DNA of 64,000 bases from a virus: the IMG/VR virus record IMGVR_UViG_3300021962_000060, positions 26,922-90,921 of that record, one strand, 5' to 3'. The notes below the pieces were generated by a model that was not told the DNA's origin, ran no database searches, and worked only from the letters and a program-made list of their open reading frames with translations. A program made the translations under genes and the position numbers. This document shows positions 7,552 to 49,454 of the stretch, piece after piece. Position 1 is the first letter of the stretch; every line of letters begins with the position of its first letter.

Positions 7552-8460
7552 TCAGTCTTCAGTTGAATTACTAAATTCGCAAGTTGAGCATAAATCTCCA
7601 ACTTGTAAATTCGCTTTATGCTTTATATTTTTCTCACTGCCCCATCCCCACTTTTTTCTTTCATCGGGTATGGAATTATTACATTTAACTTTTTCTTCTA
7701 AAGTGTTTAAATATTCAACAAAATCTGGGAAGAAGAATTGCAATTGGTCTTTTTCTCCACGCTTAGCAAATGAACCACACAAGCACTCACCAGACATATG
7801 AATCATATCAGAAACGGGATTCCTAGGGATATCTTTATTAATTTTTCTATACAAATTAATATCGGCTTTTGTCCAATTGACAATCGGAGAAATCCATACA
7901 ACAGATCTATTACGAACAAAAACAGGAGAGTCTTTTCTACGGGAAGACTCATCTCTTCTTTTACCACTTAAAAACACAATTCTTTGCTTTTTTGGTATAT
8001 TATTTTCTTTAACAGCTTTTCTTAAAGCCCTTTCTTTAAGTCTTTGATACATTACAAAATGTTGACTTGGGCCAGGAAATCCATTTTCAATTATTAAATT
8101 TTCATAACTGTCTTTATCATCAGACATATATGTTTTTAAAGGAATATTGAAATTTAAACAAGTATTTTTTACATAATCATACGTTTGAGAAATACCAATC
8201 CCTGTGTTTACATGAATTGCAAAATTTGCTATATCTTTGAATAAATAAAACAATACAGTCGAATCATTACCGCCAGAAAATAAAATGCATGTATTTGACA
8301 ATTCTTTTTTATCATCTAAGATATGACATTGAACTCCAAGATTGTATATCTCATAAGCTTCTTGAATCAATAAATTCAATCTTAATAAAGCATCATCATC
8401 ACTTAAAAGTAAGACTTCTTTATTAGTCATTTTTAAGTTTTGAAACTTGTCTAAGTCCAT
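7552..8460 (-). CDS. PAPS-reductase/DndC-like ATP-pyrophosphatase
   Basis: 302 residues of the adenine-nucleotide alpha-hydrolase superfamily. The PP-loop SGGNDST lies at residues 62-68 in strand ILFSGGNDSTVLFYLF. A central FLSGKRRDESSRR matches the conserved 'GxRxxES' region of PAPS reductase and DndC relatives. The end has cysteine motifs ECLCGSF and LCSTCE that could bind Fe-S or zinc. Such proteins either reduce activated sulfate or activate a substrate for thiolation, including DNA phosphorothioation. No dndB/D/E partners are seen, so the product is open. The next gene upstream is a YkgJ-type cysteine cluster protein, three bases apart, a likely functional partner. Confidence 0.8.
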   Translation of the reverse strand: MDLDKFQNLKMTNKEVLLLSDDDALLRLNLLIQEAYEIYNLGVQCHILDDKKELSNTCILFSGGNDSTVLFYLFKDIANFAIHVNTGIGISQTYDYVKNTCLNFNIPLKTYMSDDKDSYENLIIENGFPGPSQHFVMYQRLKERALRKAVKENNIPKKQRIVFLSGKRRDESSRRKDSPVFVRNRSVVWISPIVNWTKADINLYRKINKDIPRNPVSDMIHMSGECLCGSFAKRGEKDQLQFFFPDFVEYLNTLEEKVKCNNSIPDERKKWGWGSEKNIKHKANLQVGDLCSTCEFSNSTED

Positions 8461-20894: not shown

Positions 20895-21533
20895 TCACCA
20901 AGAATCTTTGGCGAGTTCACCAGTCGTCAAATACTTTTCCTGATCGGCATAAGGAAGAGTCTTGTAGATATTATCAAGATCATGCATCGGCAGAGACTTG
21001 ATATTATCAGGCATAGGCGACTGATCCAAGGGGATCAAAGTATAATTTGTATCCTGAGGACCAGATCCAGTGCGTGAGCACTTATAGTAACGATCAGTAA
21101 TCGTACCAAACTCCTTAGCATACTCAATTAAAATCAAAGCCATATGGCGCTGATTGTAAGTGGTATCCATAACTCTAGGCTCCCAAGTGCCAGGCTCAAC
21201 TTCAACAGCAATGTTGACAAGCAAGTGCGGCTTCGGTCTCCAACGAGTATCCTTAGCAATCTGCTCACTAGCCCAGCATCTATAGTTGAAGTCCGGTAAC
21301 TCACGTGTAGAAGCAACTCTCCACTTCCAGTTAATTGGCGAAGTAACAACGGGCACTGTTATGGCAGTACCAACTGCTTCGTCAAAATTCTTTGAGTCTT
21401 GTGCAAGTTCTTGACGAAAACGAATCTTAAAAGTATCTCCCGATTGTATTGAGAAAAACTTATTTTTGCTTACGCCTCCGCTTGACGGTATATTTTTTTC
21501 TAAGTCTTTAAGTGATTTTACTGAATTAAACAT
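20895..21533 (-). CDS. Phage single-stranded DNA-binding protein (gp32-like)
   Basis: 212 residues. The core is beta-rich with many aromatic and basic residues (FKIRFRQEL, NWKWRV, FNYRCWASEQIAKDTRWRP) and has the phage-SSB phrase YYKCSRTGSGPQDTNYTLIP, which matches the OB-fold end of T4 gp32-like proteins. Place between primase and polymerase genes fits. Codons are richer in C/G than its neighbours, as expected for an abundant protein. Two GGAGG-like sites precede the start. Confidence 0.75.
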   Translation of the reverse strand: MFNSVKSLKDLEKNIPSSGGVSKNKFFSIQSGDTFKIRFRQELAQDSKNFDEAVGTAITVPVVTSPINWKWRVASTRELPDFNYRCWASEQIAKDTRWRPKPHLLVNIAVEVEPGTWEPRVMDTTYNQRHMALILIEYAKEFGTITDRYYKCSRTGSGPQDTNYTLIPLDQSPMPDNIKSLPMHDLDNIYKTLPYADQEKYLTTGELAKDSW

Positions 21534-24144: not shown

Positions 24145-24370
24145 TTACATCCTCAACTTTTTTCCATTTTGACATTAAACGATCAAACTCTGTTGTGCCG
24201 GCTACAACTCCAATAACTTCTTCTAATTCAGAATTATATAATATACATTCGTTAACGACAGTACATTTTTTGCACCCATTAACAGCATACTCAATTTTTT
24301 CTAAATTATAAGAAACCCAATGGGAGTGATGATTGTCATTGGCACAAATAGCTTGATTTCGCCAATTCAC
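24125..24370 (-). CDS. WhiB-like Fe-S transcription regulator
   Basis: 81 residues. Four cysteines with WhiB spacing: C9 (WRNQAICA), then CKKC and the following C-x5 cysteine (GCKKCTVVNEC), so a [4Fe-4S] cluster is expected. The next block GVVAGTTEFDRL lines up with the WhiB 'G-[VI]-W-G-G-x-T-x-x-x-R' turn that contacts sigma factor, with V and A replacing W and G. The C-terminus lacks the usual basic DNA-binding tail and ends acidic. WhiB proteins are confined to actinobacteria and their phages, so this gene is the strongest host clue in the window. Confidence 0.85.
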   Translation of the reverse strand: MNWRNQAICANDNHHSHWVSYNLEKIEYAVNGCKKCTVVNECILYNSELEEVIGVVAGTTEFDRLMSKWKKVEDVNDNNWE

Positions 24371-44007: not shown

Positions 44008-44374
44008 CTTCAACCACCTTTTTGGTGCCAACGACTATATGATGTACTTTACCACTAAATTGCATTTTTTTCTGAATAGCAATAATTTCAAAAAAAGAAG
44101 AATCAATAATATTACCATATCTGTCTTTTAAGTTTTTTAATCTAATTGAATATGAAATATCATCAATGTAATTTTTAGGAACAAACAGATCTAACTGTTC
44201 AAAGTTTGCTACATAAGGTTGGTTTAAACTTTCAGAGGATGACTGCTGTGCAAATACAGGTATAGTCCTACTGTATCCAAAAGTCACAAACCTCTGACCG
44301 GCGGCGTTAATGGTCGTTACTTTAGAATAAATATCAATTTGATGATGAAATTTTATAAAAGTTCCGTATGACAT
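44000..44374 (-). CDS. Head-tail stopper/joining protein
   Basis: 124 residues starting MSYGTFIKFHHQIDIYSKVT. Its small beta-barrel pattern (GQRFVTFGYSRTIPVFAQ, QLDLFVPKNYIDD, FFEIIAIQKKMQFSGKVHHI) fits SPP1 gp16-like stoppers. It lies after the adaptor gene, with a one-base overlap, which supports the name. Confidence 0.65.
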   Translation of the reverse strand: MSYGTFIKFHHQIDIYSKVTTINAAGQRFVTFGYSRTIPVFAQQSSSESLNQPYVANFEQLDLFVPKNYIDDISYSIRLKNLKDRYGNIIDSSFFEIIAIQKKMQFSGKVHHIVVGTKKVVEDA

Positions 44375-45300
44375 CAGACAATATAATCCATCACAAACAT
44401 CATGTAGTCCATCAGCAAGACATCTGCTTCAATATTACCTGTAGACTCGTAGAAGTTGGGAGACATATTAAAACTAGTAGTATCCATGCTAATACTTGAA
44501 ATACCATGCCTTCTGTATTCAGAATCGTCATTCATTAAATCTGCAATTATAAGATTAGCGGCTTGCTTGATGTTACTGGGTACAAATCTCCAACCAAAAT
44601 CTCCTTCAACTTTGTAATCAGAATCATTTCTAAATTTTTTATTATAAATTCTAGTTGACTCAGTTTGAATAATATTGGCTTTATATCTTAAATAATAAGA
44701 AGATTCAAAATTGCCTGCTTGACGAACTCTCTCGATATTCAACAAAGTAGAATCACTATAGTCATGAATAATTTCCGAATCAGCATCGCCATAATTCATA
44801 GTAACTTTTCTAAGAGTATTAATTGGATATGGCAAATGTAAATTATTGTGATTATTTCCATCTATAGTAAATGATTTATTAGGATAATAATCAAATGTTT
44901 GACCACAATATGTGTTAATAATATTTCTTGCTCTTAGTTCATACTTTTCAAAAACATCTTCATGAGTATCAATTAATTCAGGATATTCGTCAAAAAAATC
45001 ATCCGATGTTGTGTATGGTACATAAACATTAATATATTTAGATTGTGTGTACTCAGTAGAACTAATAGTGTAAGTAAAGTCTGCTCTGTGTGTTCCACAA
45101 GAACTTAGTACATATATTCCAGATGCTTCCTGACCAAAAGTTACTGTATAAACACCAGAACTAGATCTTGTTGCAGACACGTTAGCTTTAACAATATCAC
45201 CAAATTCATGATACAAATTCACAATTACACTATTTGATGCAGGATCAGAAGGTAGTGTAAGAGTTAAAGTTTTACTTGTATCTATTTTTACGCTATCCAT
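44374..45300 (-). CDS. Head-tail adaptor (connector) with N-terminal beta domain
   Basis: 308 residues. The C-terminal 200 residues resemble the gp6/gp15-type adaptor: DDFFDEYPELIDTHEDVFEK helices, ARNIINTYCGQTFDYYP, then KQAANLIIADLMNDDSEYR. The first 95 residues form an added Ig-like beta domain (TLTLPSDPASNSVIVNLY, GIYVLSSCG), which makes it longer than usual adaptors and may show on the neck surface. First of four connector genes in order. Confidence 0.7.
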   Translation of the reverse strand: MDSVKIDTSKTLTLTLPSDPASNSVIVNLYHEFGDIVKANVSATRSSSGVYTVTFGQEASGIYVLSSCGTHRADFTYTISSTEYTQSKYINVYVPYTTSDDFFDEYPELIDTHEDVFEKYELRARNIINTYCGQTFDYYPNKSFTIDGNNHNNLHLPYPINTLRKVTMNYGDADSEIIHDYSDSTLLNIERVRQAGNFESSYYLRYKANIIQTESTRIYNKKFRNDSDYKVEGDFGWRFVPSNIKQAANLIIADLMNDDSEYRRHGISSISMDTTSFNMSPNFYESTGNIEADVLLMDYMMFVMDYIV

Positions 45301-45308
45301 TTAGACTC

Positions 45309-45398
45309 CTAGCAGTCGCATTCTTCGCAACCACAATCGCAATGCTCTACACATTCACAACCACAATCGCAAGCTTTAGTTCTTTTTTGTATATCCAT
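45309..45398 (-). CDS. Cysteine-rich microprotein, metallothionein-like
   Basis: A 29-residue frame starting MDIQKRTKA and then almost only Cys, Asp, Glu and Gly. The hexapeptide CDCGCE occurs twice (residues 10-15 and 20-25) around CVEHC-type spacing and the protein ends EECDC. Nine of 29 residues are cysteine, arranged C-x-C, as in metal-thiolate proteins. Its ATG comes one base after the endolysin stop (TGA-C-ATG), so it is likely coupled to the endolysin. It fills the gap to the connector gene exactly. No family is recognised. Confidence 0.6.
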   Translation of the reverse strand: MDIQKRTKACDCGCECVEHCDCGCEECDC

Positions 45399-45399
45399 G

Positions 45400-46146
45400 T
45401 CAGCCAAACATTTTTTTCCAAGTAGTGGGTCCAGCAACACCATCAGCCTTCAAGCCATTTGCAGTCTGCCAGGCTTTCAAAGCGGCATCAGACTTGGCAC
45501 CAAAATCACCGTCTGGAGTAGCCCCGATAATTGCCTGAACTAGCTTGGCAGCATCACCTTTGGAGCCGAGTTTTACGGGCGTTCCTGGGTATTCAAATTT
45601 CAAACCGCCCGAAGTGCCTCCTCCGGCAGTAGAGGAAGCCTGAGCGGGCGCTGAGGGGGCAGGAGCGGGCGATCCAGAGCCAATAGCAGCCAAGGCATTC
45701 CTTACAGCATCGGGGTTGTCAGCCATAGCTGGGCTAATTTCATAATGCACCCATTTACCACCAGGCGAGCCAATCCGATTTCTGTCATACACAGTCCATT
45801 TATCTTTATCGCATCTATACCCAGCACCCCAGCCCAAAGGGTTTGGCATGTATGCGCTTGAATAATCGTGGATTTCTTCAATGCCTAAAGCATCACGATT
45901 ATCATACAAAAATCCAATAACAGCCTTTAATTGATCTGGGTTTCCACCAAGATCAACAGCACGCCATGTAGCATGTACAGATTTAGGCGGATTAGGATTG
46001 CTTGAACCCTTAACTGGGCGATCAGCAAATATTCCTAAATTTTTAAGCCCAAATTTTGCCATAAGAGCATCTGCTAAAACTTTGGTGCCCTCTCTTTTTG
46101 CTGCGTGAACAGCGTCTTTGTTTCCCGTATAAGGTCTAACGGCCAT
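45400..46146 (-). CDS. Endolysin: M15-type peptidase plus peptidoglycan-binding domain
   Basis: 248 residues. The N-terminal 150 residues have the D-Ala-D-Ala-type M15 metallopeptidase order: HATWRAVDLGG (His and Asp), IEEIHDYSSAY, then KWVHYEIS (second His). A linker rich in Ala, Pro and Ser (SGSPAPAPSAPAQASS) leads to a PF01471-type peptidoglycan-binding domain (GSKGDAAKLVQAIIG, ATPDGDFGAKSDAALKAWQ, NGLKADGVAGPTTWKK). It has AGGAGG and its own TATAAT promoter, and no signal peptide, so it needs the holin. Higher G+C than neighbours. Confidence 0.85.
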   Translation of the reverse strand: MAVRPYTGNKDAVHAAKREGTKVLADALMAKFGLKNLGIFADRPVKGSSNPNPPKSVHATWRAVDLGGNPDQLKAVIGFLYDNRDALGIEEIHDYSSAYMPNPLGWGAGYRCDKDKWTVYDRNRIGSPGGKWVHYEISPAMADNPDAVRNALAAIGSGSPAPAPSAPAQASSTAGGGTSGGLKFEYPGTPVKLGSKGDAAKLVQAIIGATPDGDFGAKSDAALKAWQTANGLKADGVAGPTTWKKMFG

Positions 46147-46216: not shown

Positions 46217-46468
46217 TCATTTCGTGTTAGAAACGTTTTTTTCTACACCAGTAAATGCCTCGTTAATTTCTTCCATTGTTAATTCTCCATCAAGCGAAGC
46301 CCTAGCCAGCTTGATAAAAACCTCTGTGCAGGCCGTGAATCCAGCCAAAAGAGCAGCCTTCCAGACGGGTATATCACCCAGCATTGAGGCACCACCAATA
46401 ATTGGCAAAGAATTAACAATAAAAACAGCGATAACTCTTTGTATAATTGATTTAAATTTATTACTCAT
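46217..46468 (-). CDS. r1t-type holin
   Basis: 83 residues from the ATG at 46468, which overlaps the preceding small membrane gene (ATGA). Two hydrophobic helices, RVIAVFIVNSLPIIGGASM and WKAALLAGFTACTEVFIKLA, are followed by a short acidic tail ARASLDGELTMEEINEAF that is characteristic of the r1t-like actinophage holins. It would open the membrane for the endolysin downstream. Confidence 0.8.
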   Translation of the reverse strand: MSNKFKSIIQRVIAVFIVNSLPIIGGASMLGDIPVWKAALLAGFTACTEVFIKLARASLDGELTMEEINEAFTGVEKNVSNTK

Positions 46469-46638
46469 TTCCCATCCTCCTTGGCAAGCATTGCACCAAT
46501 ATAATGAACTGCTAGTGCTATACCCGTTATCCATATAGCCTTTTGTAATACTGTACCAGATAGCGTTATCAAAACCATTGCACTTCCTGCGACAGTCCAA
46601 ATTAACCCATAACTTTCTTTAATAAACTTTTTAAACAT
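46465..46638 (-). CDS. Small two-helix membrane protein before the holin
   Basis: 57 residues starting MFKKFIKESYGLIWTVAGSA, with two hydrophobic segments (LIWTVAGSAMVLITLSG and AIWITGIALAVHYIGAML) and a charged end AKEDGK. ATG at 46638 follows AGGAG by five bases. It overlaps the holin ATG. Typical of a second holin or antiholin. Confidence 0.7.
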   Translation of the reverse strand: MFKKFIKESYGLIWTVAGSAMVLITLSGTVLQKAIWITGIALAVHYIGAMLAKEDGK

Positions 46639-46646
46639 ATAATCTC

Positions 46647-48011
46647 CTATTTTCTTCTTCTTGCCGAATTAGACCCCTGCGCAGCAGCACCAGAAGGCAT
46701 TGTGAATGCAACAGCGGTAGCGGCAATCAAAACTCTTCTTTGACCAACATTTATATTTGAACCAATTGGAACGTAAACATCAAATTGACCACTAAAAATA
46801 TTAATTTGGTCTTCAAATTCTTCTTTAACCTCAATTGGCGCATCCGAAAGCGCCTCGGCAATGGCCTCGGCTTGCTCATCGGTTAAATCAGATTCAGAAA
46901 TATTCTCAATCAACTGAGAAACTTCCTCACTAGACAAATCTTCTAGATTATCTGGGCTTAGTACTTCTAATATCTCATCCGAAGATAACTCAGATACGAT
47001 TGCCGATTCTGGATCAGGAGGAAGGGTCTCTACTGGATCTGTCTCTGGAGGTAACGGCTCCGTCACCACCGGCGGTTCTGTTGTAATATCCACTATTGTC
47101 GTTGACGTAGTTTCCGTGACAGGGGCAACTGTTGTCGGGACAGAAGTAGTACTGGTCGTCGTCGTAGTTGTGGATGTTGTAGTAGCCGGCCATGTTGTCG
47201 TTGTCTCTGGGACTATTATAACAGGTAATGTTGTAGTAGTTGTTGATGTAGTCGTAGTACTTGTGGTGGTAGTAGTTGTAGTAGGCGGTAGAGCCGTTAT
47301 TACAGAAACAACATCGCTCCAGCTAGAATAAATGCCAAGTGTGTCATTGTCTGCTCTAACTTTAAATTGGTACTCTTTACCAGAATCTAAATTTTCAACG
47401 ATACCAGTTGTCGTATTTGAAGAAATTGCCCACCCTGAAGAAAAATTATCTTCTGACCAGAAAATAGCATATCTTTCAACAGATACATTTGATTGCTCTG
47501 GCTCATCCCATGATAAATAAACTTTAGAATCATTAAAAGATGTGACAGTCAAACCCCTAGGCGGATTCAAAATCAACGGGATAGTTGTCGTAGTTGTGCT
47601 AGTTGTAGTGGTAGTTGTCGTTGTACCGCCTACGACAACACCCGAAACATTCGTTTCAACACGATATGACACCCCATACCAAGCGTCAGGATTACCACAG
47701 CAAACTCCAGCACGAAGTCGATATGTACCAGGCTGTAAGTTTATGTTTAAATAAGAATCAAGACCATAATGATCATCATTGGCAGCTACCAGATTATTAT
47801 TTGAATCATACAACCATAAATGACTATCTATACCATACTCTTGAGCATATGTTCTTATATTTAAATTTTGTAAAGAATCAAGAGTTATTGTTATATCAGT
47901 AGGCTGAAGAACAATAAATGTATCAGCTTTTGCTTGAGAAGCAAAAGGAAGAGAAAAACACCATATACCAACAGGTAGAAATCTAATTAACTTTTTGGTT
48001 ATACTTTTCAT
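46647..48011 (-). CDS. Secreted, anchored Thr-rich surface protein (PPC, FN3)
   Basis: 454 residues. Signal peptide (KKLIRFLPVGIWCFSLPFAS, cleavage near AKA). Residues 30-125 resemble a pre-peptidase C-terminal beta domain (HLWLYDSNNNLVAANDDHYG, LQPGTYRLRAG). Next a Thr tract, a fibronectin type III domain (PPRGLTVTSFND, VYLSWDEP, GKEYQFKVRADND), then about 90 residues of Thr-rich mucin-like linker, an acidic helical region (SDEILEVLSPDNLED), and a final hydrophobic stretch with a basic end (VLIAATAVAFTMPSGAAAQG, ARRRK). It looks host-like and cell-surface. It shares a transcript with the lysis genes. Confidence 0.8.
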   Translation of the reverse strand: MKSITKKLIRFLPVGIWCFSLPFASQAKADTFIVLQPTDITITLDSLQNLNIRTYAQEYGIDSHLWLYDSNNNLVAANDDHYGLDSYLNINLQPGTYRLRAGVCCGNPDAWYGVSYRVETNVSGVVVGGTTTTTTTTSTTTTTIPLILNPPRGLTVTSFNDSKVYLSWDEPEQSNVSVERYAIFWSEDNFSSGWAISSNTTTGIVENLDSGKEYQFKVRADNDTLGIYSSWSDVVSVITALPPTTTTTTTSTTTTSTTTTTLPVIIVPETTTTWPATTTSTTTTTTSTTSVPTTVAPVTETTSTTIVDITTEPPVVTEPLPPETDPVETLPPDPESAIVSELSSDEILEVLSPDNLEDLSSEEVSQLIENISESDLTDEQAEAIAEALSDAPIEVKEEFEDQINIFSGQFDVYVPIGSNINVGQRRVLIAATAVAFTMPSGAAAQGSNSARRRK

Positions 48012-48040: not shown

Positions 48041-48763
48041 TTAGAAATCATTAGTGTTCTCATGATGTGTATGAACATTGTCATCACTATCATTATGAGT
48101 ATGGTCATCGGGGTGAGATGGGGGCTGTCCGTTTGACCACTGATCATTTACAATAAAAGTTGAAATAATCCATTTATCATCTGTTATAGGAACACAAGAC
48201 TCATGAGGATGAGTCCACGAAGCAGGAAATAATGCAATCCTACCAGCTTTTGGTTTTATCTTAACACTATGCAATGGAAAATTTGTTTCTCCACCATACT
48301 CTACATCGTTAAGATAAACAACACATCCTAAAACTCTATTATTAATACTTGAATTTAGAACTGGGAAAGAGTCTACGTGAGGTCTGTAGAAACCAAAATT
48401 TTTAGAATATTTCTGCACCTGAAAACCAGTGTCAGCAACTTGCACCCATGAATCAAGATGACGATAGTTTTGTTTATATATTGAGACAGCAGAAATTAAA
48501 GCATCAGCAAAATGCATTTCAAGAGAATACCAAGATTCATCCCAAGCTATACCAAGTTCTCTGAATGCAAATTCAGAAACATGAATATCCTCGGTAGTTT
48601 TGCTTTCTATATTAACACCACCAAGTGTTTTGCCAAGGTGTGATTTATCCCAAACAGTTTTTAATTTTTCAATAAAGTTAAAACATTTGGACTCGTCTAT
48701 CAGCCCATCAAGTGTCATAATTAAACTGGAATCACCCGCCGGCTGCGTCGTTTCTATCTGCAT
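48041..48763 (-). CDS. 2-oxoglutarate/Fe(II) oxygenase (prolyl-hydroxylase-like)
   Basis: 240 residues from the ATG at 48763, six bases after GGAG; ATG at 48766 or 48718 is possible. The double-stranded beta-helix motifs are FYRPHVDSFP (H-x-D), a central GCVVYLNDVEYGGETNFP, KAGRIALFPASWTHPHES (second His) and a trailing basic region. The C-terminus is rich in His and Asp (HPDDHTHNDSDDNVHTHHEN), able to bind metal. Lies just after the fibre-associated protein; hydroxylation of a virion protein or a host surface target is possible. Confidence 0.8.
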   Translation of the reverse strand: MQIETTQPAGDSSLIMTLDGLIDESKCFNFIEKLKTVWDKSHLGKTLGGVNIESKTTEDIHVSEFAFRELGIAWDESWYSLEMHFADALISAVSIYKQNYRHLDSWVQVADTGFQVQKYSKNFGFYRPHVDSFPVLNSSINNRVLGCVVYLNDVEYGGETNFPLHSVKIKPKAGRIALFPASWTHPHESCVPITDDKWIISTFIVNDQWSNGQPPSHPDDHTHNDSDDNVHTHHENTNDF

Positions 48764-49454
48764 CATATGCTCCAATTGATCTAGTGTTAGAAATTTTATC
48801 ATAAAGCCATTCGCTAAATTCATCACTCAGTGCTGGAATTTGAGAAACATCGCCTCTTTGCTGAGCATTATCGGAGCCTGATAGGAATCTACCGACCTTT
48901 TCCATAGGAACTTCATTGATAATCCAATCCTTAATTGATTCAGGTATATTCAATACCTCAACCATTCCATGAGAAACAATAGCAATTTCTTCACGACTAT
49001 TAAGTTCTGTATATGCAAAATCCCATTCTAAAAGTAGTCTAAATATTTCTTGTAGAGTTCTAGCATGTTCTGTATGAAAACCTTCAATTGTTTTAATTTC
49101 ATCAATTTGGTTATCTAATTCAAAATACATTATATGGCCATAAGGCAGCGCTTCGATAATGGGGAAAATAGCCAACATATTGTCAAAACGAACATGGTGA
49201 TGTCCAGTTAAGCCATGAGGTTTCTCAAGACTACCACAAGTGCATTTTTCACCTAACCATTTGTGAAAACCCTGCGGCCCTTTAATAGAATTAGCGTCAC
49301 AGCGCAAATAGATTTTATCTTCTGTTTCAACTTGAATATTTGAAATCTCTACATGTTGTGCAATAGCAAAAAATCCAGGTACATCATTAATGCCAGGAAT
49401 TTTTTCCCAGAATCCAATTCGACCATGCTCTTTGGAACAATCACTAAGTTTCAT
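48732..49454 (-). CDS. Fibre-associated protein, paralogue of 27749-28498
   Basis: 240 residues. The C-terminal two thirds match the 27749-28498 protein (HARTLQEIFRLLLEWDF and the GSDNAQQRGD...FSEWL block). The N-terminal 100 residues differ and include a cysteine/histidine-rich patch (GEKCTCGSLEKPHGLTGHHH). It overlaps the long collar fibre gene by one base, as its paralogue does with the S74 fibre gene. Probably a fibre chaperone or tip; not in a family known to me. Confidence 0.65.
   Translation of the reverse strand: MKLSDCSKEHGRIGFWEKIPGINDVPGFFAIAQHVEISNIQVETEDKIYLRCDANSIKGPQGFHKWLGEKCTCGSLEKPHGLTGHHHVRFDNMLAIFPIIEALPYGHIMYFELDNQIDEIKTIEGFHTEHARTLQEIFRLLLEWDFAYTELNSREEIAIVSHGMVEVLNIPESIKDWIINEVPMEKVGRFLSGSDNAQQRGDVSQIPALSDEFSEWLYDKISNTRSIGAYDADRNDAAGG

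Follow-up and report, generated by a model that had tools for sequence, protein, structure and literature searches.

Between the endolysin and head-tail adaptor genes of a virus that probably infects actinobacteria lies a micro-gene that is a genuine protein-coding gene missed by annotation. It stands in the window, by which we mean the whole stretch of 64,000 nucleotides analysed here, itself part of a 90,921-bp IMG/VR virus record. The encoded peptide is extremely rich in cysteine (9/29 residues, about 30%). We interpret it, with a probability of roughly 0.6, as a small phage-encoded metal-thiolate peptide of metallothionein-like type that would be translated late, as a cistron between the lysis and the virion genes.

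The gene had been proposed in a sequence-only reading as an unannotated phage gene of the lysis/neck block, and the strictly conserved C-x-C cysteines support it as real and protein-coding. The sequence, coordinates, length of 29 residues, nine cysteines and two CDCGCE units given there are all exact, and the strand is (-). The start does follow one base past the endolysin stop (ATG at 45398, endolysin stop 45402-45400), while the distance to the next gene, put at nine bases, is in fact eight (stop ending at 45309, adaptor ATG at 45300). First-order Markov simulations of the 64-kb window (100 runs), in which open stretches were scored for Cys per 20 aa, never reached nine Cys within 20 aa (0/100); the simulated maximum was seven, whereas the real window holds one stretch with nine. 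The cysteine cluster is thus not a product of chance.

Table 1. Features of the micro-gene locus (window coordinates)
Feature	Position	Strand	Description and basis
Head-tail adaptor gene (type A partner, downstream)	44374..45300	(-)	308 aa; phrog_442/33253
Adaptor-gene ribosome site, AGGAG	45301..45310	(-)	begins inside the micro-gene stop (TAGGAGTCTAA); read from sequence
Cys9 micro-gene	45309..45398	(-)	29 aa, MDIQKRTKACDCGCECVEHCDCGCEECDC, stop TAG; sequence and family comparison
Conserved 20-residue core	45312..45371	(-)	C-x-C-G-C-x-C-x3-C-x-C-G-C-x2-C-x-C, its end coincides with the last sense codon; all family members share the spacing and the stop directly after it
Basic lead-in R-T-K-A	45372..45383	(-)	conserved; the family consensus there, immediately ahead of the first Cys, is [RK]-x-K-x; Arg/Lys at -4 and Lys at -2 from the first Cys, each in 38/38 distinct sequences at positions unforced by the search pattern
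Endolysin gene (upstream)	45400..46146	(-)	248 aa; PG_binding_1 (C-terminal) as the only Pfam match; N-terminal M15-like H-x6-D and W-x-H read by eye

A conserved family of nine-cysteine peptides

A search with the downstream adaptor led to a locus (L001) in which the same peptide precedes the same gene behind a different upstream gene. Scanning all of IMG/VR for the motif CGCEECDC followed by a stop gave 24 stretches, and a looser scan that fixed only the spacing of nine Cys and two Gly gave 72. Nine of the latter were of low complexity or otherwise outside the family, so that 63 contigs remain in addition to the record of the window. In all 63 the stop codon directly follows the last Cys, although the pattern did not require a stop. 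All 38 distinct coding sequences have C-x-C at fixed spacing, which the main scan forced. Searches with the two neighbouring virion genes, which were blind to the motif, added two more variant types on three contigs; Gly4 is replaced by Asn in L130 and L131 and by Asp in L200, and each keeps all nine Cys. When the pattern left Gly and the last three Cys free, the family members among the matches listed likewise all kept nine Cys, the remaining frames among them being of low complexity or unrelated. A recurrent unrelated Cys-rich frame, FSSVKSCSCGCYCIKSCYCIKRCNCTKRGCSFF, was also seen in L325, L329, L330, L332 and L339 and is possibly the antisense of another gene.

Selection on the residues around the cysteines can be judged from positions that the search left free. 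Besides the basic lead-in (Table 1), position 9 is E/D/Q in 38/38 distinct sequences and position 16 is E/D in 37/38. Variation is highest at codon position 3 (0.54, versus 0.28 and 0.32 at the other two). The sequence-only reading had suggested a dN/dS check and a search for the repeats at the same locus in relatives: pN/pS on unforced codons is about 0.25 for the 59 close pairs and rises to 0.54 when all pairs are taken (uncorrected values, from pairs that are not independent), and frame and cysteines are kept in the relatives. The constraint on the micro-gene acts at the protein level.

Family members have nine Cys, in one case ten, among 25-33 residues. The spacers between them are mostly D/E/S/T/N, and a hydrophobic core is absent. 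The window peptide contains no aromatic residue at all, and some other members have scattered single Y/F/L/V/I.

Genomic setting, probable hosts and loss

One of two genes invariably stands 3' of the micro-gene. Type A encodes a phrog_442-like head-tail adaptor of about 308 aa, type B an LtfC-like beta-sandwich protein of about 111 aa, kin to cyanophage proteins annotated in L-shaped tail fibre assembly; some phages possess both. The upstream gene is usually an endolysin, with exceptions. A Shine-Dalgarno-like start is present in 20 of the 38 distinct upstream regions and a stop-start overlap (TRATG) in 14, with at least one of these signals in 33. The junction in the window, TGA-C-ATG, has a spacing that fits re-initiation after the endolysin, and in L031 and L097 the endolysin stop overlaps the ATG of the micro-gene (TGATG). 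In one lineage the micro-gene is flanked by a conserved TTTTTTAGGTATAAT element on one side and the adaptor ribosome site on the other.

The nearest named kin are Streptomyces phages of the Stanwilliamsviridae (BoomerJR, Phredrick, Wakanda), with about 43-47% amino-acid identity in the portal and 24-27% in the adaptor. The micro-gene is missing from the sampled members, both before the adaptor and in the rest of the record; Phredrick has a single pattern match, at another place and without the family motif. Each of the eight phage records checked encodes WhiB, whether or not it has the peptide, and the hosts are therefore probably Actinobacteria; in a control on 14 genomes the WhiB family matched only in Corynebacterium glutamicum. 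A link between WhiB and the peptide was rejected on the same distribution. The window's virus has two WhiB-like genes (window 24179-24364, (-), and record position 21237-21446), and each of the seven relatives has at least one. Among 84,980 species genomes of bacteria and archaea, a scan returned no genuine family member, only two low-complexity Cys-rich frames; a host origin of the micro-gene was rejected on this result, and in the data searched the family is phage-only. Named phages gave no match with blastn or tblastn, the low-complexity filter rendering the latter uninformative.

The micro-gene was present in 23/80 adaptor loci and 29/80 LtfC-like loci, some of which are shortened by contig ends. 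On the adaptor tree, carriers with the peptide before type A fall on one side of a branch (support 94) together with a group that lost it, carriers with the peptide before type B are placed elsewhere, and at least three changes in presence or absence are needed. L115-L123 and L117 align closely on both flanks of a clean deletion of the micro-gene, with no frameshift or decay. In the deletion group (L115, L119-L123), compared with L117, L124 and L125, the gene is gone between TTTTTTAGGTATAAT and the adaptor ribosome site, about 100 nt before the adaptor, and the downstream gene and its ribosome site are intact. We regard the micro-gene as accessory because this sister group lost it; L115 and L119-L123 thereby provide a natural knock-out group among close relatives. 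Two long records with no peptide near either partner gene (G006, G007) have none elsewhere in the record. We found neither a metal-handling gene linked to the micro-gene nor a correlate of its presence or absence that points to metal.

Proposed metal binding and related peptides

The fixed spacing of the C-x-C pairs, the Gly between them, the acidic spacers, the lack of a hydrophobic core and the stronger conservation of Cys than of Gly are what is expected of a metal-thiolate cluster peptide. That the peptide binds metal appears likely from these features. Arranged as C-x-C pairs, with turns at Gly and acidic residues in the spacers, the nine Cys would enclose d10 metal ions in a small cluster, and nine thiolates would suit three divalent ions (M3Cys9) or several Cu(I), both cluster types being predictions from residue number and spacing. 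Its use would then be buffering or sequestration as in metallothioneins, a further step that we hold to be slightly better than an even bet. The likely benefit would be that zinc, copper or thiol stress is buffered in the cytoplasm of the host late in infection, the position in the gene block suggesting the late timing. It is a more tentative idea, for which the odds are somewhat against, that the peptides represent a virus-encoded family of metallothionein type, by which actinobacterial phages would control the availability of metal or thiols late in infection, possibly gating lysis or disarming host metalloproteins.

The beta domain of mammalian metallothionein is an M3Cys9 cluster, in which nine thiolates hold three divalent ions. 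This domain and the fungal copper metallothionein of the Neurospora crassa type have 20-30 residues, repeated C-x-C motifs and no hydrophobic core. The micro-protein resembles both in size and C-x-C repeats, and the beta domain also in its nine Cys. The Cys spacing, however, differs from both types, the micro-protein is acidic and not Lys-rich like the beta domain, and the searches revealed no relationship in sequence.

Bacterial metallothioneins (SmtA/BmtA, PF02069; PflQ2 MT) are likewise very short and Cys-rich with C-x-C motifs. They bind Zn/Cd, with comparable numbers of Cys as ligands, and the Pseudomonas protein PflQ2 MT, which about equals the micro-protein in Cys number, forms Zn3Cys9His (PMC7387436). 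The micro-protein differs from them in being about half as long, in lacking a Pfam match and a conserved His, and in being encoded by a phage; no SmtB-like regulator was seen close to its gene. The micro-protein most likely works like a metallothionein, to judge from its composition and Cys arrangement, and matches none of the known metallothionein families.

Searches of Pfam (all models, including PF02069), PHROGs and NCBIfam gave no match at E up to 10, with a sensitivity limited by the length of 25-33 residues, and the PDB, searched also with a profile, gave none either, a negative that the short length weakens. The paired CxxC or CxxH knuckles of zinc fingers and zinc ribbons are absent; there is a single CxxC (C15-x2-C18), and the spacing is otherwise C-x-C. 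The gene type had been taken to be undescribed, and our search, in a full-text library that covers a minority of subscription papers and preprints, agrees in that no phage-encoded metallothionein turned up. If the metal-thiolate reading is true, the conserved Cys9 peptide of probable actinobacterial phages would constitute a minimal natural metal-thiolate module of 25 residues, and metal handling during phage infection would become testable. The case also illustrates that family libraries overlook conserved phage genes when these encode no more than about 30 residues.

Alternative roles and neighbouring genes

The foremost alternative is a part of the virion or a factor in its assembly: the peptide, perhaps with metal or disulphide cross-links, would help to assemble the neck or tail fibres alongside the product of the following gene. 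This reading draws on the position of the micro-gene, as a head-tail adaptor or LtfC-like tail-fibre gene lies 0-34 nt 3' of every member. However, these are two different partners, most loci with the same partners are without the peptide, and sisters that lost it have adaptors near-identical to those of carriers. The sequence likewise offers no hydrophobic or aromatic interface, and we consider such a role unlikely.

Less probable still is a cysteine-responsive leader ORF, in which ribosome passage over the Cys codons would control the downstream virion gene. In mycobacteria, Cys-rich leaderless uORFs upstream of cysA2 were proposed to be cysteine-responsive (PMC4633059), and the micro-gene shares with them its shortness, its Cys content, the adjoining downstream gene and the actinobacterial setting; its frame moreover runs up to the next gene's ribosome site. 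A conserved TATAAT directly precedes the ORF in one lineage, and in L092 and L117 so little separates the ATG from TATAAT that a leaderless mRNA would result, as is apparently the case in L092, if the element is indeed a promoter. In contrast to the mycobacterial uORFs, the micro-gene has strict Cys spacing, conserved residues between the Cys and no RNA-structure signal, and is usually internal to a gene block with virion genes downstream; at most loci it follows an endolysin or other genes and would probably not come first in the transcript. A leader ORF is disfavoured because synonymous-codon shuffles fold as well (158/200 and 70/200) and because the identity of the inter-Cys amino acids is constrained. 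Its deletion, furthermore, leaves the downstream gene and ribosome site. Conservation at the protein level is better explained by a metal-thiolate peptide than by a regulatory leader.

An RNA element as such was rejected: comparison with column-shuffled alignments gave low folding energies, with z of -3.7 and -6.4, but the signal was removed by synonymous-codon shuffles. The window phage possesses a PAPS-reductase-like (cysH-like) gene (7552-8460, (-)), which would suit a cysteine-responsive leader, but the PAPS_reduct family is confined to this one of the eight records and absent from the seven related ones. A link of the micro-gene to sulfur supply was rejected on this distribution.

About as improbable as the leader is a partnership with the endolysin, in which the peptide would load or withhold Zn for the adjacent metallo-endolysin and thus time lysis. 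Most carriers have an endolysin directly upstream, VanY (M15) domains are confirmed in those of L112 and L263, and lysis gene and micro-gene occur together at two different positions. Yet the endolysin of the carrier L129 is a non-metallo, glycoside-hydrolase-like enzyme of the Rv2525c type. Conversely, VanY endolysins stand right before the same type B gene without the peptide in L205, L235 and L252 (the last by close similarity to L205), and M15-like endolysin relatives in other phages are without it as well. The tie between micro-gene and endolysin is therefore loose, and Zn-endolysin coupling as the sole role is weakened.

It is hardly credible that there is no independent protein and that the frame forms a C-terminal tail of the endolysin by slippage on an A7 run (TGGAAAAAAATG) near the endolysin end: relative to the endolysin the micro-frame is indeed shifted by +1, and the window, L031 and L097 have the run upstream, but L001, L045, L065, L073 and L098 have neither the run nor a directly upstream endolysin and possess their own start with a ribosome site, so that a frameshift fusion was rejected.

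Other genes around the lysis cassette display features of their own. Adjoining the lysis genes, window 46647-48011 (-) encodes an fn3-domain protein with long Thr-rich runs, and several related loci have large proteins with such runs at a similar place. The small gene at 46217-46600 (-) matches phrog_26427 ('nuclease'), a label that may be wrong, as its position and composition are more like those of a lysis-cassette membrane protein. Of the two genes at window 48041-48826 and 48732-49454 (-), a 2OG-Fe(II) oxygenase gene overlaps its upstream neighbour by about 95 nt when read from the first listed start, and probably has a later one.
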